The position numbers and the translations under genes are program-made. Below are positions 27,477 through 39,647 of a stretch of 64,000 bases of DNA, one piece after another. Position 1 is the first letter of the stretch; each line of letters opens with the position of its first letter. Under the pieces are notes generated by a model. It did not search any database. It had not been told where the DNA came from and saw only the letters and a program-made list of their open reading frames with translations. The DNA is from Pseudomonas mucoides. GTDB taxonomy: Bacteria; Pseudomonadota; Gammaproteobacteria; Pseudomonadales; Pseudomonadaceae. The DNA lies in NCBI RefSeq assembly GCF_015461845.1, contig NZ_JACOPW010000001.1:62001-126000 (forward strand). The letters are read 5' to 3'.

Positions 27477-27662
27477 TTATTCATTATTACCCTTGCGCAA
27501 ACCAAATCCCTGATTATTTTGGTTATTAACCACCATTCCTTTGATCACCGGCCCGTCCATGATGCCCCGGCGCAAATCAACCAGGACATCATCAACAGCC
27601 AAGTTAGTGATGGTATTCGTAGTGACGGACAGCGTCGTCCACCGCTGCCAAATGGGCCTCAA
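27477..27662 (-). CDS. Possible 61-residue ORF coupled to the inverse autotransporter gene
   Basis: A TTG-started frame whose start overlaps the autotransporter stop codon (TTGA). It encodes 61 residues (for example NLAVDDVLVDLRRGIMDGPV) without a signal peptide or known motif. Position and overlap favour coupling, but TTG start, lack of homology and the nearby IS5 remnant leave it doubtful; it could be the stump of a longer gene cut by the IS element. Confidence 0.3.
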   Translation of the reverse strand: MRPIWQRWTTLSVTTNTITNLAVDDVLVDLRRGIMDGPVIKGMVVNNQNNQGFGLRKGNNE

Positions 27663-30600
27663 GGATTGCTCACTATTAAACGAATCATGCGGCGCTGATC
27701 CTCCTTCACCGGGGTATAGCTGTCATTCGTGGCACCAGGAATGACCTGGTAGTCACCACCACCTACTGCCTTTTCAATCTCCCACCGATAGGTCAAGCCC
27801 GGCGCACAAGTCGCCACACAAGTAACCCGACTAGTGAGCGGTGATCCAACCTGCGGATACCCGTTGACAAAGCCGTCGATCAGCACTGTTAGTGGAGCCA
27901 CCGGGTCGATGATCGAGCCCGGTGGGGTGGTGCCGCCACCGCTCACGCCTGGGGCGCTGGCCGTGCTCAGGGTGTCGGTGTTACCAACCACGTTCGCACC
28001 GTTCTTCGCCTGCACTTCGAAGATCAGCACCCGACCCACGTCGCCGGCATCCAGCACGTAGTTTGCATCGCCGTCGGCATGACCACCGTTTTTCCAAGTC
28101 ATCACCGAGGCGTCGGTACCGTTACCGCCATGGGCATCGAAGCTGTAAACACCGGTCAGGGTCTGGCCGACCTGCAACACACCCTTGATATCCGTCACGT
28201 CAACGATCGGCGCCGCCACCGGGTCGATGATCGAGCCCGGCGGGGTGGTGCCGCCACCGCTCACGCCTGGGGCGCGGATCGTGCTCAGGATGTCGGTGTT
28301 ACCAACCACGTTCGCACCGTTCTTCGCCTGCACTTCGAAGATCAGCACCCGACCCACGTCGCCGGCATCCAGCACGTAGTTTGCATCGCCGTCAGCATGA
28401 CCACCGTTTTTCCAGGTCATCACCGAGGCGTCGGTACCGTTACCGCCATGGGCATCGAAGCTGTAAACACCGGTCAGGGTCTGGCCGACCTGCAACACAC
28501 CCTTGATATCCGTCACGTCAACGATCGGTGCCGCCACCGGGTCGATGATCGAGCCCGGCGGGGTGGTGCCGCCACCGCTCACGCCTGGGGCGCTGGCCGT
28601 GCTCAGGCTGTCGGTGTTACCAACCACGTTCGCACCGTTCTTCGCCTGCACTTCGAAGATCAGCACCCGCCCCACGTCGCCGGCATCCAGCACGTAGTTT
28701 ACGTCGCCGTCGGCATGACCACCATTTTTCCAGGTCATCACCGAGGCGTCGGTGCCGTTACCGCCATGGGCATCGAAGCTATAAACACCGGTCAGGGTCT
28801 GGCCGACCTGCAACACACCCTTGATATCCGTCACGTCAACGATCGGCGCACCCGCCACCGGGTCGATGATCGAGCCCGGCGGGGTGGTGCCGCCACCGCT
28901 CACGCCTGGGGCGCTGGCCGTGCTCAGGCTGTCGGTGTTACCAACCACGTTCGCACCGTTCTTCGCCTGCACTTCGAAGGTCAGCACCCGACCCACGTCG
29001 CCGGCATCCAGCACGTAGCTTGCATCGCCGTCTGCATGACCACCGTTTTTCCAGGTCATCACCGAGGCGTCGGTGCCATTACCGCCATTGGCATTGAAGC
29101 TGTACGCACCGGTCAGGGTCTGGCCGACCTGGAGAACACCTTTGATGTCCGTGACGTCAACGATCGGCGCACCCGCCACCGGGTCGATGATCGAGCCCGG
29201 CGGGGTGGTGCCGCCACCGCTCACGCCTGGGGCGCTGGCCGTGCTCAGGCTGTCGGTGTTACCAACCACGTTCGCACCGTTCTTCGCCTGCACTTCGAAG
29301 GTCAGCACCCGACCCACGTCGCCGGCATCCAGCACGTAGCTTGCATCGCCGTCGGCATGACCACCGTTTTTCCAGGTCATCACCGAGGCGTCGGTGCCAT
29401 TACCGCCATTGGCATTGAAGCTGTACGCACCGGTCAGGGTCTGGCCGACCTGGAGAACACCTTTGATGTCCGTGACGTCAACGATCGGCGCACCCGCCAC
29501 CGGGTCGATGATCGAGCCCGGCGGGGTGGTGCCGCCACCGCTCACGCCTGGGGCGCTGGCCGTGCTCAGGCTGTCGGTGTTACCAACCTCGTTCGCACCG
29601 TTCTTCGCCTGCACTTCGAAGGTCAGCACCCGACCCACGTCGCTGGCATCCAGCACGTAGCTTGCATCGCCGTCGGCATGACCACCGTTTTTCCAGGTCA
29701 TCACCGAGGCGTCGGTGCCGTTACCGCCATTGGCATTGAAGCTGTACGCACCGGTCAGGGTCTGGCCGACCTGCAACACACCCTTGATGTCGGTCACGTC
29801 AATGATCGGCTTACCCCTACCCGGGTAGATATTTGGATCCCGCGGATCGGTACCTGCATCCACCTCTTCCCTATCGGTCCAACCATCGCCGTCGGTGTCT
29901 GGCTTAGCTGGATCTGTGCCATAAATAGCCTCTTCATCGTCGGTCAAGCCTTCACCATCGGTATCGACTGGCTCTGCGACGATCAGCTTATAGCTCGCTG
30001 TAGTAGTCGAACGGCCATTAACTTCTTGATGTGCAAATACCTCGACCGAACGCGCTGTAATACCGGCAGGAATGGTGACATATCCGCTCACCGGATCAAC
30101 CGTCACCTGCAACTTGTTGGCTTTGAAGGTAGCCGTTGTCTCGACCAACGTGACGGCGCCTTTTTCATATTTCACCTGGCCAGCAGGATCGACACCCTGC
30201 AGCGCAGGGCTGGGGCTGACCAAAGGACTGGCTGCACGACCACTTGGTGCCGTCAGGCTCATGGTTGGTTCAACGAAAGCAAAAGGCACTGTGGCTACCT
30301 TCTCTTCTTTTTTATAGTCGAGCACAACATTATATTCACGCGATACGAAGTCTTTGCGAGCGTCTGCCAATGGACGGAGCGCAGCGGAACTGCCTGGTTC
30401 GAATTGCGACGAGAGTGGGCGATCAAAGCTCCAAGTCAGGTTCATACCGACTTTGAATTGACCGTCACCACCAGTGATTTGTTCGTGCTCGGCATTGAAC
30501 CCCACCAACGGAACCGGCTGCCACTTGACGCCCAAGCTGTAACCTTTCGGGTCTCGCTCCAGCTTACCCCCACCAAAAGTATCAACACCCTCACCTTTCC

Positions 30601-31828
30601 ATTGGAAATACTTGGCAGTACCCGCAACTTTTGGTGCACCCGGCAAGGCAATTTCTACACGCGCATCCCAACCAGAAGCCGGACGCTCATACAGATCATA
30701 GCGCTCAGTATCGGGATTCAAACGATCCTGATCCGACTTCTTCCAGCCGGAGATTGGCGCGTAGGCGTTGGCAGACAGACGAGCCTGTTCGGTCCAGACT
30801 TCCATACCTAACCCACCACGCGTGTGGCTTCGGCTAAAGTCCTGATCAACAAAGGCGTTGATACCCAACATCAGCTCATCGTTGACTTGCTTGCGATAAC
30901 CTAGGCCGATGTTGCCGATATTACGCTCGTCGAATTGGCGCACGGCCACCTGTCCGAACAGAATGTCATCATGCCCCTCAAGCAGAGGGTGCAGATAATC
31001 AAGCGCAAGGTTGACGTCATTGGTTTCAATGTTAGCCTGCACACTAATTTTGGCTCGGCCGTACGGGCTCAGCAGCTCTTCCGCTTGCTGAGACAAAGCA
31101 CTGCTCGCACCACTTGCCGCCTGCTGCGCAAACACATCACCGGCCCCCCTACCACTGTCAGACTCCTGCGCCGAGTACAGACCCTGGCCTAACTGCGATA
31201 GAGTTTGTGCCAAGCGTTGTTCAAATTCGCGACTGTTCTCCTCGGTTGCCGAGTCGGCCTTGGCGCCTTTAGCCTTAGGCACAGGTTTAATGATAGTGTC
31301 ACCAGCCTTTAAGCCGGCAACGCCTTTCTCGCCCATCATCAAGGCATTCAAACGAGTGAGTTCGCGCTGCGAGCGATTGCTTTGCAAGGCCACTGATGCC
31401 AAAGACTCGCCTTTTCGCAGCGTGTAAAACACATAGCCTGGATAGAGCGCAGCTTCGCTGCTGCCAGTTTTCTCCTGAGGCACAAGCCATACTTTATCAG
31501 ACCACCCCAGAGCAGCCATCTGCGTATGCAGCGTCGTGAGCGCAGCTTCACTCACAGCAAACCGATGCGCCACCTGAGAGACCGTCTCACCTTGCGGGAC
31601 ATAAAGAAGATAGGTTTTCTCCACCGCCACTTTGACGCCGCGCTCTTGCACATCCACACGTGCTGCCGCCGCAGCAAACGGCATCGCCATCGTTTCATAC
31701 CCATAGAGCGCGAGGACTACGCTGGCGGCCAAAGAGCGCCCTTTCTTATACTTAGAAAAAGTGTCGAGACCTACTGTTACTCGACTAGACTTACCAAGAC
31801 TTTTACCTAAAGCATTGTGCTTCTTCAC
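27659..31828 (-). CDS. Inverse autotransporter (intimin/invasin-like, ZirT-like) adhesin with six Ig-like repeats
   Basis: 1389 residues. Order: an extended signal region (1-57, basic start then hydrophobic stretch ending AMPFAAAAA); two LysM-like peptidoglycan-binding stretches (about 71-120 with PQGETVSQVAHRF, and 131-185 with RKGESLASVA); an inverse autotransporter beta-barrel (about 250-470, from LLSPYGRAKISVQANIE through LGYRKQ to NLTWSFDRP); a linker domain; a calcium-type thrombospondin-3 stretch (about 623-660, DTDGEGLTDDEE and DTDGDGWTDREE); six 106-107-residue repeats (671-1311); and a 77-residue C-terminal domain. The barrel anchors it in the outer membrane (type Ve secretion) with the C-terminal part outside. 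Its C-terminus matches that of the exported protein at 23136-23816. Function inferred: adhesion, or delivery of Zir-like partners. Confidence 0.9.
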   Translation of the reverse strand: MKKHNALGKSLGKSSRVTVGLDTFSKYKKGRSLAASVVLALYGYETMAMPFAAAAARVDVQERGVKVAVEKTYLLYVPQGETVSQVAHRFAVSEAALTTLHTQMAALGWSDKVWLVPQEKTGSSEAALYPGYVFYTLRKGESLASVALQSNRSQRELTRLNALMMGEKGVAGLKAGDTIIKPVPKAKGAKADSATEENSREFEQRLAQTLSQLGQGLYSAQESDSGRGAGDVFAQQAASGASSALSQQAEELLSPYGRAKISVQANIETNDVNLALDYLHPLLEGHDDILFGQVAVRQFDERNIGNIGLGYRKQVNDELMLGINAFVDQDFSRSHTRGGLGMEVWTEQARLSANAYAPISGWKKSDQDRLNPDTERYDLYERPASGWDARVEIALPGAPKVAGTAKYFQWKGEGVDTFGGGKLERDPKGYSLGVKWQPVPLVGFNAEHEQITGGDGQFKVGMNLTWSFDRPLSSQFEPGSSAALRPLADARKDFVSREYNVVLDYKKEEKVATVPFAFVEPTMSLTAPSGRAASPLVSPSPALQGVDPAGQVKYEKGAVTLVETTATFKANKLQVTVDPVSGYVTIPAGITARSVEVFAHQEVNGRSTTTASYKLIVAEPVDTDGEGLTDDEEAIYGTDPAKPDTDGDGWTDREEVDAGTDPRDPNIYPGRGKPIIDVTDIKGVLQVGQTLTGAYSFNANGGNGTDASVMTWKNGGHADGDASYVLDASDVGRVLTFEVQAKNGANEVGNTDSLSTASAPGVSGGGTTPPGSIIDPVAGAPIVDVTDIKGVLQVGQTLTGAYSFNANGGNGTDASVMTWKNGGHADGDASYVLDAGDVGRVLTFEVQAKNGANVVGNTDSLSTASAPGVSGGGTTPPGSIIDPVAGAPIVDVTDIKGVLQVGQTLTGAYSFNANGGNGTDASVMTWKNGGHADGDASYVLDAGDVGRVLTFEVQAKNGANVVGNTDSLSTASAPGVSGGGTTPPGSIIDPVAGAPIVDVTDIKGVLQVGQTLTGVYSFDAHGGNGTDASVMTWKNGGHADGDVNYVLDAGDVGRVLIFEVQAKNGANVVGNTDSLSTASAPGVSGGGTTPPGSIIDPVAAPIVDVTDIKGVLQVGQTLTGVYSFDAHGGNGTDASVMTWKNGGHADGDANYVLDAGDVGRVLIFEVQAKNGANVVGNTDILSTIRAPGVSGGGTTPPGSIIDPVAAPIVDVTDIKGVLQVGQTLTGVYSFDAHGGNGTDASVMTWKNGGHADGDANYVLDAGDVGRVLIFEVQAKNGANVVGNTDTLSTASAPGVSGGGTTPPGSIIDPVAPLTVLIDGFVNGYPQVGSPLTSRVTCVATCAPGLTYRWEIEKAVGGGDYQVIPGATNDSYTPVKEDQRRMIRLIVSNP
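27891..29815 (-). repeat. Six tandem 318-321-bp repeats inside the adhesin gene
   Basis: The marker GGGTCGATGATCGAGCCCGG recurs at spacings of 318, 318, 321, 321 and 321 bases, starting near 27903. The repeats are almost identical in DNA. They fall into two subtypes, encoding GVYSFDAHGG (the last three translated) or GAYSFNANGG (the first three). The 3-base difference is one extra Gly codon in the DPVAGAP linker. Confidence 0.95.
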
Positions 31829-32403
31829 TTGAGATTACCGTTCTCGGAAATTACGATGGCGGTAATAATCTCAAGTCACACCACGGTTGCCCTCCCTGCA
31901 ACCCCTTATTCTCCTGTAGGGATTTACCCATTCTTGTCCCCACTCCAAACCACCAAAACGCTAAATCAGCGACTGCTCGAACATAGGAATAGAAAAGGCT
32001 CTTCACGGACTACCAAGGGAAGGCAACCTTGACCCTCCTCGATTGCACGGATTGTTTAAGGTATTTCCGCAGAGTTCGAAAACACTCGTGCACTGCGCCT
32101 GCGATAGTGCGGGTAGCCCATTGCGCGGGCGGCAGCAGCCAGCAGGCACACAGACTGGCCCCGGCACCAACTGGCGGGGCAGATGCCACGGAGTAGGCGC
32201 CAATTCGACTTACAGGGTGTGGGCATCGGAATTGATCGATACAACCGCCCCTCCCAAACGGGGGGGGGGGAAAGCAGTAGCTTTCGGCATCAGCACAGCG
32301 GATTCGGATTCGGATTCGGATTCGGATTAGAGACCGTGCTGTACAAACATATTCAACCAGATCACCGTTCTTTTTTTGGTTACCCGGAATACAGTGAGGA
32401 ATC
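31829..32403. other. Gap upstream of the adhesin gene with simple repeats
   Basis: The AT-rich part next to 31828-31990 must hold the adhesin promoter. Further upstream is a run of 11 G (32260-32270) and five copies of GGATTC/A (32300-32329). A 177-codon minus-strand frame crossing these has no protein-like character. Confidence 0.5.
32260..32329. repeat. Poly-G11 tract and (GGATTC)5 microsatellite
   Basis: Eleven G in a row at 32260-32270 and five hexamer units at 32300-32329, both of a kind prone to slippage. They lie 430-500 bases upstream of the adhesin start and just downstream of the terminator at 32404-32444. Confidence 0.85.
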
Positions 32404-32444
32404 AAAAAAGCGGCCAGTGGGGAGCCGCTCCCTACTGACCGCTG
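32404..32444 (-). terminator. Terminator of the 32.5-33.8 kb gene group
   Basis: On the minus strand AGCGGTCAGTAGGGAGC pairs with GCTCCCCACTGGCCGCT (one wobble, one mismatch), followed by six T. Confidence 0.85.
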
Positions 32445-32491
32445 GAAACATCCCGCCGCTCGATAACCGGGCGCTCGCCGTGCAACACCGC

Positions 32492-32572
32492 TCAGCACAG
32501 CAGCAGGAACAGCAATATCGCTATCAGAAAAAAGCCCCCCCATGAAAAGGCTCTTACGAAACCGCGCAGCAT
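32492..32572 (-). CDS. 26-residue hydrophobic peptide ending ILLFLLLC
   Basis: ATG 32572 to TGA 32492-32494, 11 bases after the beta-barrel gene and before the shared terminator. The peptide is MLRGFVRAFSWGGFFLIAIL followed by LFLLLC: a positive start, then one membrane-spanning segment with a terminal Cys. An AGG touches the start codon, so translation would depend on coupling or be weak. A second gene with the same ending lies at 33258-33407, which makes chance less likely. Function unknown; small single-helix proteins often regulate membrane enzymes or act as toxins. Confidence 0.5.
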   Translation of the reverse strand: MLRGFVRAFSWGGFFLIAILLFLLLC

Positions 32573-32583
32573 CCTGCGCTCGG

Positions 32584-33084
32584 TTAAAAGCGCAGGTAGG
32601 CCGACGCTGTGGTCTGGTCGACGTCCAGATCGCCGACCTTCAGGGCCACCTGCTCCAGGCGCAGGCCCAGTCCGCCGACCACATCCACTTCGGCACCGAA
32701 GCCATATAGGGTGTCCATGTCCTCGGACGAACCAGTAACATCGTCATCATCGCTGCGCCAGGCATGCAACCCTGCGATGCCATAGACACGGATACGCTGC
32801 CCCAGCGGGAACCCCAGTTGCGCACTTGCCTGGGCTGATTGGCCGCTGAAACTCTCGCGACCGCCGCTTAGTTCGCCAAAGTCCACCACCGCGCCCTCGA
32901 AGGCCAGGTAGTCATTGAGGCGATACCCTGCATAGACCTTGTAGCTCTCATCGGAATCGTCGAGCTCGCGCTCGTCGACCTCGAAGCGGGCAATGCCGCC
33001 GCCGACAAACAGGCCGCTGTCGGCTAGAGCAAAGGCCGAACCGGACAGCAGAACAATCGTGGAAATTATTTTCGACAAACGCAT
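32584..33084 (-). CDS. Small outer-membrane beta-barrel protein
   Basis: 166 residues from ATG 33084 (MRLSKIISTIVLLSGSAFALADS signal peptide). The mature protein has the alternating strand pattern of eight-strand OmpA/OmpX-like barrels (GLFVGGGIARFEVDE, YKVYAGYRLNDYLAFEGAVV, IRVYGIAGLHAW, TLYGFGAEVDVVGGLGLRLE) and ends ASAYLRF with the terminal Phe of outer-membrane proteins. It is followed by the 26-codon hydrophobic ORF and a terminator. The role is unknown; it may be structural or stress related. Confidence 0.8.
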   Translation of the reverse strand: MRLSKIISTIVLLSGSAFALADSGLFVGGGIARFEVDERELDDSDESYKVYAGYRLNDYLAFEGAVVDFGELSGGRESFSGQSAQASAQLGFPLGQRIRVYGIAGLHAWRSDDDDVTGSSEDMDTLYGFGAEVDVVGGLGLRLEQVALKVGDLDVDQTTASAYLRF

Positions 33085-33257
33085 ACCTACTCCCATTACT
33101 TGTAAATTTCGAAAAGCCGTTGGTCACTCGCTAAAAAACGTCATCCCCAGCAGACTGCGGAGTGATTGCGCAGCACCCAAAACATGGATAAAACAACCAT
33201 CGACACCGGCGATGTGAAACCGATGAGATCGGCGGGCAACTCGCCGCGCATTACCGC

Positions 33258-33407
33258 TCAGCACAGCAGCAGGAACAGCAATATCGTCATCAGAAAAACG
33301 CGCAATATCGTCATCAGAAAAAAACTCATTATCGTCATCAGGAAAAAGCGCAGTCCGCCTTCCCGCGACCCGACGGCCTGTTCAACCCCTTCCACCCCCC
33401 GCCCCAT
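33258..33407 (-). CDS. 49-residue hydrophobic peptide with tandem FLMTI repeats
   Basis: ATG 33407 overlaps the TGA stop of the upstream gene by one base (TGATG), a classical coupling arrangement. The first 20 residues are polar (MGRGVEGVEQAVGSREGGLR); the rest is FFLMTIMS, FFLMTILR, VFLMTILL and FLLLC. The three octamer repeats come from a 24-base tandem DNA repeat (33276-33348). The ending ILLFLLLC is identical to that of the peptide at 32492-32572. It should sit in the inner membrane; function unknown. Confidence 0.55.
   Translation of the reverse strand: MGRGVEGVEQAVGSREGGLRFFLMTIMSFFLMTILRVFLMTILLFLLLC
33276..33348 (-). repeat. Three tandem 24-bp repeats in the hydrophobic peptide gene
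   Basis: Minus-strand units with the core CTGATGACGATA, spaced 24 bases, in frame. Each encodes one FLMTI octamer. Confidence 0.8.
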
Positions 33408-33784
33408 CAGAAGCCCCGGTAGGAGGAGGCGCCGTCCTGCTCCGCAGCGATGCCACGAAAAGCATCCGCCTCACGAAAGTCAGCATGCAGATCGACACCC
33501 TCCTGCCAGGAGGACTCGACGGTAGCGCCCACCGTCTGACCGAGCGCGAAGCCCGCCTCGACATCGGCCTGGCGATTCAGGCGCTGAAGCCGGTTTTGCT
33601 TCGCTTCGTCCCGCCGTAGCTTGGCAAGCGCGCCGCGCAGGGACAGGTCGGGCTGCCCGCCCCGCCCCTCCTCACGCTCCCCGCGAGCGCCTCCGGCGTC
33701 CTCCTGAAGGCCGCCCTGTTCGACCGTGACGATCGTGGCACCGGACAGAAAGAGCATGACCATGATGGTTTTTGCGAAACGCAT
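33407..33784 (-). CDS. Small exported protein of unknown function
   Basis: 125 residues: signal peptide (MRFAKTIMVMLFLSGATIVT), then a charged, largely helical region (LRGALAKLRRDEAKQNRLQR) and a C-terminal GFALGQTVGATVESSW segment. GAGGGG lies seven bases before the ATG. The signal peptide resembles that of the beta-barrel protein at 32584-33084 (both start MR, then AK or SK, then I). The stop overlaps the start of the hydrophobic peptide gene. No family recognised. Confidence 0.6.
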   Translation of the reverse strand: MRFAKTIMVMLFLSGATIVTVEQGGLQEDAGGARGEREEGRGGQPDLSLRGALAKLRRDEAKQNRLQRLNRQADVEAGFALGQTVGATVESSWQEGVDLHADFREADAFRGIAAEQDGASSYRGF

Positions 33785-33982
33785 GATTCCCCTCGGTTGC
33801 GGCCCAACTGAGCCCTAAAGAAAATGGCCGTGCCGACGGATACGCGGCATCGGTATTCATTGTTCATCTGCAAAGGCACTCGGGTTCGCGACGGGCAGCA
33901 CCGCCGGCACGAGTGCGAAAAAAGGTGCCAGGACCGGGCGCCGCACCCCTTGCGCCAGGGCACCCGGTACTGGGCTGACTCG

Positions 33983-35194
33983 TCACTGCTGGAGCAATTC
34001 GGGCAACACGTCGGCCTTCAATTCAGCCATCGCCGCGATATCGATCGCCGCCATCGGCCGGCCAAGCAGATAGCCCTGGGCATAGCGGCAACCGAGCGAG
34101 CACAGCAAGGCCAGTTGTGCCGGCGTCTCGACGCCCTCCACCACCAGCTCGACGCCCATGGCGCGCGCCATGTCCACCGCGGACCGGATAACCTCCACGC
34201 TACGTGGCTGCAGATCGCTGGCGCGAATGAAGGCAGCATCGAGCTTCACCTCGTTGAACGGCAGCTCGCACAACCGGTTCAACGACGAAAAGCCCAAGCC
34301 GAAGTCGTCCATCGACACCTTGCAGCCGAGCATGCGCAGGCGCAGCAGCGCTTCCTGGGCGGCGGGCAGGTCGGCGATCTCGCCGGTCTCGGTCAGTTCC
34401 AGGGTGATGGCGCCCGGCGGCAGCCAATGTTCGGCCAGCGCGGCACGAATGCGCTCGACCAGATGCTGCGATTCCAGTTGCGCGGTGTGAACGTTAAACG
34501 CCATGGGCAGGTGAATACCGCGCTGACGCAGGGAACACTGGAACTTCAGGCTAGGCAGGAACATTGCCCAGAACAGTTCGTCGAGCAAGCCGTACGCCTC
34601 GATGACCGGCAGGAACGCCGCCGGACCGAGCAGCCCCTGCTGCGGATGACGCCAGCGCGCCAGTACTTCGACGCCGACGACGCGGTTGAGCTGGATGTCG
34701 CGCTTGGGCTGAAAGAAGGGCTCGAACTCATCCTCCAGCAGGGCACGCCGCACTTCGGCAAACCCAGGCTGTGCAGGCGGCACGCCAGGCACCACAGTCG
34801 GGAGGGGGGTGCTTGCCGCTGCACGCTCCATCAGTGCACCGATCTTGCGCAACGTGTACGGCTTGCCCAGGTCACCGATATAGGCGAGCCCCAGCCCCGC
34901 CACCATGGCGGCGACACCCCGGCGTAGTGAGGGCTCGATATCGCTGCAGATGATCACCGCTTCCACCAGCCGCTCTTGCGCGGCGCGCCGAAGGAAGGCC
35001 AGGCCATCCATGCCTGCCATCTGCAGATCGCAGATCACCAGGCGCACACCACCACAGGCACGCAACAGCGCAAGCGCCTCCGCCCCGTCGCCCGCTTCCA
35101 GCGCGTCGGTAACGCCGATCAACCCGAGCGCGGCGCGCAGGACGGCACGCTGAAAACGATTGTCCTCGAGCAGAATGACCTTGCCGGTTTGCAT
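33983..35194 (-). CDS. RocR-like response regulator with EAL phosphodiesterase domain
   Basis: 403 residues: an N-terminal receiver domain (1-120; ILLEDNRFQR acidic pocket, phosphoacceptor in VICDLQMAGMDG) and a C-terminal EAL domain (about 150-395; GVEVLARW in place of EAL, FNVHTAQLE, LELTETGEIAD, DDFGLGFSSL, KLDAAF and VVEGVE). The EVL variant and domain order match P. aeruginosa RocR, a cyclic-di-GMP phosphodiesterase that opposes RocA1. Start 35194 has GGGGA upstream. It is divergent from the RocA-like gene. Confidence 0.88.
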   Translation of the reverse strand: MQTGKVILLEDNRFQRAVLRAALGLIGVTDALEAGDGAEALALLRACGGVRLVICDLQMAGMDGLAFLRRAAQERLVEAVIICSDIEPSLRRGVAAMVAGLGLAYIGDLGKPYTLRKIGALMERAAASTPLPTVVPGVPPAQPGFAEVRRALLEDEFEPFFQPKRDIQLNRVVGVEVLARWRHPQQGLLGPAAFLPVIEAYGLLDELFWAMFLPSLKFQCSLRQRGIHLPMAFNVHTAQLESQHLVERIRAALAEHWLPPGAITLELTETGEIADLPAAQEALLRLRMLGCKVSMDDFGLGFSSLNRLCELPFNEVKLDAAFIRASDLQPRSVEVIRSAVDMARAMGVELVVEGVETPAQLALLCSLGCRYAQGYLLGRPMAAIDIAAMAELKADVLPELLQQ

Positions 35195-35407
35195 GATTTG
35201 TCCCCATAGGTTGCATGCCGGCAAAGCTACACAATACCCGGAGCAGACTTCCCCTAAGCCCTTGTAGGGTTTTCCCTATTCCGGGAAATCGCCTTTCAGC
35301 ACTCGGGATAATCCGAGAAAATATGCAGCATTCCCCTACCCATTGCGGCGGGTTGGATTAAAGTGAGTTGGATTAAAGTGAATTGGCGTGCAGCCTTCGA
35401 GGTGACC
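35195..35407. promoter_or_regulatory. Divergent promoter region between rocR-like and rocA-like genes
   Basis: AT-richer than its surroundings. It contains the repeated GTTGGATTAAAGTGA / GTTGGATTAAAGTGA direct repeat near 35353-35381 just before the RocA-like start; possible binding sites for the response regulator. Confidence 0.45.
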
Positions 35408-36022
35408 ATGAGTAAGATAATGATTGTCGACGATCATCCCACTGTACGTCTGGCGGTCAGGGTGATCCTGGAGCGCGAGGGTCACCAGATAGTCGCGGAG
35501 GCCGACAACGGCATCGACGCGATCAAGCTGGCCCGCGAGGCGATGCCGGACATCGCCATCATCGACATCGGCATTCCGTTGCTCGACGGGCTGGACGTCA
35601 TCGGCCGCATGCGCAGCATCGGCTTGCGCATCGACACCCTGGTACTGACCTCGCGGCCCTCTTCGCTCTTCGCCAGCCGCTGCATGAGCGCCGGCGCGTC
35701 CGGCTACATCAACAAGAGCGACAACCTGGAGGAGCTGGTCAGCGCGGTGAAGGCGGTGGCCGCCGGCTACGGTTTTTTCCCGCGGGACGCCCTCTACGAT
35801 CGCGAACACAACAACGAAAAAGAGGCCTTCGGCTCGCTGACCGACCGCGAAATGATGGTGCTGCAGGCCATCGTCCGCGGCGTGAAGATCAAGGACATCG
35901 CCACCACCATGCTGCTCAGCGACAAGACCGTGAGCACCTACAAATCGCGGATCATGCAAAAGCTCAGCGTGGGCAACAACGTTGAACTGGTGGACTGCGC
36001 ACGGCGCAACGGCTTGGCCTGA
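35408..36022 (+). CDS. RocA1/BvgA-like NarL-family response regulator
   Basis: 204 residues: receiver domain (1-120; MSKIMIVDDHPTVRLAVRVI, phosphoacceptor Asp in IIDIGIPLLDG, Lys in YINKSDN) and LuxR-type helix-turn-helix (about 145-200; LTDREMMVLQAIVRGVKIKD and LSDKTVSTYKSRI). GAGGTG before ATG 35408 decides the start. The same order with a BvgS-type kinase 76 bases downstream and a divergent REC-EAL protein is that of the Roc1 (SadARS) system controlling fimbriae and biofilm in P. aeruginosa. Confidence 0.9.
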   Translation: MSKIMIVDDHPTVRLAVRVILEREGHQIVAEADNGIDAIKLAREAMPDIAIIDIGIPLLDGLDVIGRMRSIGLRIDTLVLTSRPSSLFASRCMSAGASGYINKSDNLEELVSAVKAVAAGYGFFPRDALYDREHNNEKEAFGSLTDREMMVLQAIVRGVKIKDIATTMLLSDKTVSTYKSRIMQKLSVGNNVELVDCARRNGLA

Positions 36023-36098
36023 TGCTGGCTTCGGCGCTCGCTCGCCGAGCGATGGCCTCGGACGACAGCCTCCCACTCGCTCGCCTGTAGGACTGACG

Positions 36099-39647
<3,549 letters not shown>

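Follow-up and report, generated by a model that had tools for sequence, protein, structure and literature searches.

The locus and its neighbours

The locus lies in a window of 64 kb, by which we mean the whole stretch of DNA that was analysed (G000:C1:62001-126000), taken from a genome of 7.04 Mb. On the minus strand the order of transcription is a RocR-like gene, a 125-aa ORF, a 49-aa ORF, the gene of a 170-aa outer-membrane protein (OMP), a 26-aa ORF, a terminator-like hairpin and an adhesin gene, see Table 1. The 49-aa and 26-aa ORFs are called mini-ORFs below; each is found directly 3' of an OMP-like ORF and in its orientation. RocR, RocA and RocS are names given for what we take to be a resemblance.

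The adhesin gene (27659-31828, minus strand) encodes an inverse autotransporter with an IAT_beta domain and a ZirU-family match in six stretches. A LuxR-type response regulator and a hybrid sensor kinase, divergent from these genes, occupy 35363-39647. At the start of the response-regulator gene, which is divergent from the RocR-like gene, there is a 15-bp direct repeat in two perfect copies (35352-35381). Folds as good as that of the terminator-like hairpin were obtained in 2 of 200 shuffles. The hairpin is absent from the list of a terminator consensus scan, which gives one other terminator-like site, at 33214-33198, against 2.2 sites expected by chance.

Table 1. Positions in the window of the genes, ORFs and repeats of the locus.
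Feature	Position	Strand	Basis
RocR-like gene, receiver and EAL domains	33983-35224	-	Pfam domains
125-aa ORF, probably a shortened and diverged paralogue of the adjoining OMP	33407-33784	-	Sequence comparison; no Pfam match
49-aa ORF that carries the array in its reading frame; its ATG shares one base with the stop codon of the 125-aa ORF	33258-33407	-	ORF list
24-bp tandem array of three units (33327-33350, 33303-33326, 33279-33302)	33279-33350	-	Repeat finding
62-nt block, 90% identical to 32474-32535	33240-33301	-	Sequence comparison
170-aa OmpA-like outer-membrane barrel gene	32584-33096	-	PF13505 and PF01389 above cut-off
26-aa ORF for a hydrophobic helix, 11 nt past the OMP stop	32492-32572	-	ORF list, hydropathy
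Single 24-bp unit related to the array, inside the 26-aa ORF	32513-32536	-	19-20 of 24 bases identical to array units
62-nt block, 90% identical to 33240-33301	32474-32535	-	Sequence comparison
Terminator-like hairpin and T run, 3' of the 26-aa ORF (position approximate)	~32403-32443	-	Fold z -2.84

A 24-bp repeat in frame

Tandem Repeats Finder locates the array at 33278-33352 with a period of 24, 3.1 copies, 86% matches and a score of 115; the highest score among 40 dinucleotide-shuffled versions of the whole window is 72. Any two of the three units are identical at 20-21 of the 24 bases, that is, they differ by three or four mismatches. With up to two mismatches allowed, an 18-base core of the unit occurs at only four places in the 7.04-Mb genome, namely the three array units and the single unit of the 26-aa ORF. 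When three mismatches are allowed the core is found at 11 places, compared with two for a reversed control. The 24-bp repeat is thus real but modest. A preliminary description of this DNA had reported both the in-frame array and the related single unit, and both are borne out. It had also described the unit as an FLMTI octamer: the unit does encode eight residues, of which FLMTI is the five-residue core.

Both mini-ORFs have strong hydropathy and share an ILLFLLLC-stop end; the C-terminal end of the 49-aa ORF reads FFLMTIMSFFLMTILRVFLMTILLFLLLC. For the 49-aa product AlphaFold2, run on the single sequence, predicts one helix over residues 3-48 (mean pLDDT 87.6, pTM 0.51). This agrees with the earlier proposal that the gain of a unit would add eight residues to a hydrophobic helix without a frameshift. 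A common N-terminus of the two mini-ORFs is unsupported, as the N-terminal parts show no similarity and 2637 of 5000 shuffles align equally well.

Two OMP-like ORFs

The 170-aa ORF belongs to the OmpA-like small outer-membrane barrels (Pfam OMP_b-brl and OmpA_membrane), scoring 46.6 bits against PF13505 (cut-off 28.7) and 45 bits against PF01389 (cut-off 21). The 125-aa ORF differs from these barrels: it matches no Pfam family at E 1, and parts of the barrel are missing from it in the alignment with the OMP.

However, the two ORFs can be aligned colinearly with 24% identity (BLASTP E 2e-4 in a two-sequence comparison). At the N-terminus 7 of 16 residues are identical, which 3 of 20000 shuffles equal, and for the C-terminus the figures are 4 of 9 residues and 44 shuffles out of 20000. 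When scored against a profile of 12 OMPs, the 125-aa ORF reaches 8.7 bits, higher than 1999 of 2000 shuffles, with one shuffle above it. A structure model from the single sequence is helical, with a low-confidence mean pLDDT of 68.1, and is weak evidence. In total, the sequence comparisons give moderate support to the 125-aa ORF being a paralogue of the 170-aa OMP.

A shared block and a probable tandem duplication

The ends of the two mini-ORFs lie in a 62-nt block whose two copies are found nowhere else in the genome. Between the copies 41 of the 44 coding bases are conserved, as are 15 of the 18 bases after the stop, and all three coding changes alter the residue. An alignment of the DNA of the two non-overlapping copies of the locus has a score of 196, against at most 99 in mononucleotide shuffles, and the 62-nt block supplies much of this score. 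We also considered the block as an RNA element; a similar hairpin can fold in both copies, but its z values of -0.36 and -1.45 leave that idea unsupported.

The resemblance of the 125-aa ORF to the OMP, taken together with the common 62-nt block, suggests that an OMP gene and a mini-ORF were probably duplicated in tandem, and that the upstream OMP then shrank and diverged. We consider it somewhat better than an even bet that such a duplication took place and that the 24-bp unit was subsequently triplicated by slippage in the degenerate upstream copy. The duplicated unit would have consisted of two genes, a small OmpA-like barrel gene and, immediately after it, a mini-ORF encoding a single hydrophobic helix. 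The downstream copy would retain the intact barrel and the 26-aa mini-ORF with one 24-bp unit. In the upstream copy the barrel gene would have shrunk and diverged to 125 aa, and replication slippage would most likely have tripled the unit of its mini-ORF, this copy being redundant and weakly constrained. If the peptides are made, their translation may be coupled to that of the preceding ORF, given the spacing of 11 nt after the stop in one case and the one-base overlap in the other, and they would be expected to reside in the inner membrane as one helix.

In-frame slippage repeats inside genes are the closest known parallel: the units of the array are arranged head to tail, their period is a multiple of three and they are confined to one gene copy. 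The array differs in having only three, impure units, and it is known here from one genome.

It should be noted that the block is far better conserved (90%) than the OMP pair (24% at the amino acid level). An old duplication followed by neutral decay alone does not predict a block at 90% when the OMP pair has fallen to only 24%; the gap calls for gene conversion, a brief episode of copying at a later time or a real constraint. Were the peptide under constraint, silent changes would be expected, and all three coding changes alter the residue; the high conservation of the block is therefore probably best explained by later local copying or gene conversion.

As the two copies agree far better at the end of the micropeptide than in the OMPs, the peptide itself could also be regarded as the functional core of the locus. 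The duplicated unit would then be a cassette of an OMP and a coupled one-helix inner-membrane micropeptide beside a c-di-GMP regulator, with the helix lengthened by whole eight-residue units. We regard this as unlikely.

Relatives in other genomes

The genome set searched contains one genome per species. When the array DNA (33230-33410) was searched against 149 genomes of the genus, that is, the own genome and 148 others, with five candidates scored per genome, only the own two copies and two weak matches of 30-40 nt were obtained. The 26-aa protein found only itself among 398 genomes of the genus (397 besides its own), in a search that is insensitive because it missed the 49-aa ORF of the own genome even at E 10. 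For the 125-aa ORF there is no match in the 148 other genomes. The 3.7-kb stretch 32400-36100 matches six others of the 398 genomes, in all cases over the response-regulator gene; this search, too, has limited sensitivity (E 1e-30, two candidates per genome). The best match of the RocR-like protein outside its own genome has at most 48% identity (398 genomes, E 1e-80, four candidates per genome). Further, 32400-33850 matches no plasmid record, and one phage record matches the response-regulator part of 32400-36100 at 64%. A degenerate pattern for the ILLFLLLC-stop end occurs in at least 115 stretches of genome contigs, with no Pseudomonas title among the 80 matches listed, which is an uninformative result.

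Homologues of the OMP are found in 7 of the 149 genus genomes, as well as in 10 of the 239 genomes of an overlapping set and 4 of the 95 relatives searched (the first and last counts include the own genome). Within the genus they are 48-53% identical, and a homologue at 32% is present in a single genome from another family of the order. A scan of genome contigs with the single OMP sequence confirmed none of 208 stretches; such a scan is insensitive, since half-identical homologues exist.

The idea that a mini-ORF is a fixed companion of this OMP was rejected. At 11 OMP homologue loci (L011-L017 and L174-L177, about 1.5 kb on each side) we sought a frame ending in at least six FLIVMA residues, a cysteine and a stop, and none was found; two further comparisons concur for L011-L017. 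Among the genomes searched no close relative with the mini-ORF or array locus was found, and the duplicated two-gene unit is seen only in this genome.

The surroundings of the homologues have features of their own. At six of the 11 loci (L013, L014, L015, L174, L175 and L176) an EAL-domain gene is situated directly upstream in the same orientation, an arrangement also seen in the window; the six products are 24-29% identical to the RocR-like protein of the window, and the EAL-OMP neighbourhood is a recurring one. One of the loci, L017 (G000:C1:516909-517379), holds another homologue of the 170-aa OMP within the own genome, 48% identical, lacking a mini-ORF and with a receiver-domain match downstream. 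In genome G089 one contig contains relatives of each of the three regulators as well as of the OMP, at least 12 kb apart, and the adhesin was not found within 32 kb.

Are the mini-ORFs translated?

That the two mini-ORFs are genuine membrane micropeptides is a possibility. The main alternative is that they are untranslated, that the array reflects slippage in non-coding or pseudogene DNA 3' of the OMP-like genes and that the apparent hydrophobicity simply results from a T-rich strand. We hold this to be doubtful, although a good part of the evidence is consistent with it. The array can be read without a stop in five of its six frames, and therefore an open frame alone is no evidence of coding. 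The T-rich strand of the array favours hydrophobic codons, and a T-rich in-frame repeat can mimic a designed membrane segment. The bases after the stop in the 62-nt block are about as conserved as the coding bases, and its coding part is without silent change.

Codon usage points the same way. The codon adaptation of the mini-ORFs was compared with stretches of equal length from 14 chosen long ORFs of the window, with a codon table from the 10 of these whose third-position G+C is at least 0.70. It is low for a gene, as only 17 of 262 such stretches fall below the 26-aa ORF and 17 of 154 below the 49-aa ORF. Compared with out-of-frame stretches it is unremarkable, 288 of 524 being lower than the 26-aa ORF and 376 of 524 lower than the 49-aa ORF. 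ATA accounts for 0.9% of the isoleucine codons in the reference genes, yet it is present in every 24-bp unit. When the four units are compared, codons 1, 2, 5, 6 and 8 differ in residue and the only silent difference is in codon 3 (TTC/TTT). The numbers are small, but with residue-changing codons predominating the peptide shows no sign of being constrained.

Neither mini-ORF has a family match above cut-off. The 49-aa ORF matches PHROG 18814, of unknown function, with E 0.0027, and the 26-aa ORF matches Pfam COX4_pro_2 with E 0.021 and 15.5 bits, below the cut-off of 22; both are taken as chance.

Against the untranslated alternative, the mini-ORFs have their starts at the stop codon of the ORF before them or 11 nt past it, and both finish at the same stop. 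Further, shuffling the stretch 3' of the OMP yields an ORF of 26 aa or longer with an unbroken run of 13 hydrophobic residues in only 3 of 4000 trials, and among the 571 ORFs of 20-60 aa in the window the 26-aa ORF is the only one with 12 straight FLIVMAC residues. The 49-aa ORF has no run of 13, and its run of eight is found in 73 of 4000 shuffles. The rarity of the 26-aa hydrophobic ORF hints at a real peptide; these run criteria flatter both mini-ORFs, because they were set after the ORFs had been seen.

If the peptides are made, they would constitute a natural pair of helices differing by exact eight-residue units, and thereby a test of how hydrophobic length affects the insertion of a micropeptide. 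More probably, the locus is a small, clear case of a redundant gene copy gathering in-frame expansions.

Comparison with membrane toxins

The mini-ORFs could also be two type I membrane toxins in tandem that are repressed by an antisense RNA; we consider this unlikely. According to PMC8309996, ZorO (29 aa) was discovered when small hydrophobic proteins in tandem duplicates were sought, ShoB has 26 aa and IbsC 19 aa, and some toxins of this sort contain a cysteine. The mini-ORFs resemble them in size, hydrophobicity, tandem copies and the cysteine at their ends, and the hydropathy of both ORFs and the predicted helix of the 49-aa product agree with the short hydrophobic one-helix form of these toxins. 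However, the mini-ORFs directly follow OMP-like genes, unlike a free-standing toxin gene, and they match no sequence family. No antitoxin RNA was detected in two weak tests: promoter-like sites were absent from both strands, where 0.3 are expected in shuffles, and the single Rfam match, snR75 with E 0.55, is far below its cut-off and taken as chance.

Length tuning and phase variation

The preliminary description had further suggested that the repeat tunes the peptide to membrane thickness or acts as a contingency locus, units being gained and lost. An array of an eight-residue unit is indeed present in frame, the other mini-ORF holds one unit and further repeats cluster close by; nevertheless, we find either role very improbable. 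One membrane span takes roughly 20 residues. The hydrophobic part of the 49-aa ORF has 29 (residues 21-49) with Arg36 inside, and one unit fewer would leave 21, so the length of the stretch does not look tuned. The few and impure units, their mostly non-silent changes and the poor codon usage also speak against tuning.

Like contingency loci, that is, phase-variable simple sequence repeats, the array is a repeat in a surface-protein locus. It differs in that its units are three and 20-21 of 24 bases identical instead of many and near-identical, and in that the gain of a unit does not switch the frame; the codon usage is also at the low end of real genes. The rate at which such repeats mutate is proportional to repeat number (section 3.1 of PMC4235727), and with so few and impure units the array is therefore a poor contingency candidate. 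A literature search on repeats and helix length found no paper, which proves nothing about what is in print.

A G11 tract at 32260-32270, about 430 bp upstream of the start of the inverse-autotransporter adhesin, fits the contingency class better. It is one of five tracts of at least ten G in the 7.04-Mb genome, and because tracts of more than seven G are listed as a hypermutable class in a table of PMC4235727, it appears from sequence to be a better candidate for phase variation than the 24-bp array. The same region upstream of the adhesin gene contains a perfect 6-bp repeat, CGGATT in five copies (32299-32328), and inside the adhesin gene a 321-bp unit is repeated six times with 96% likeness (27897-29810).
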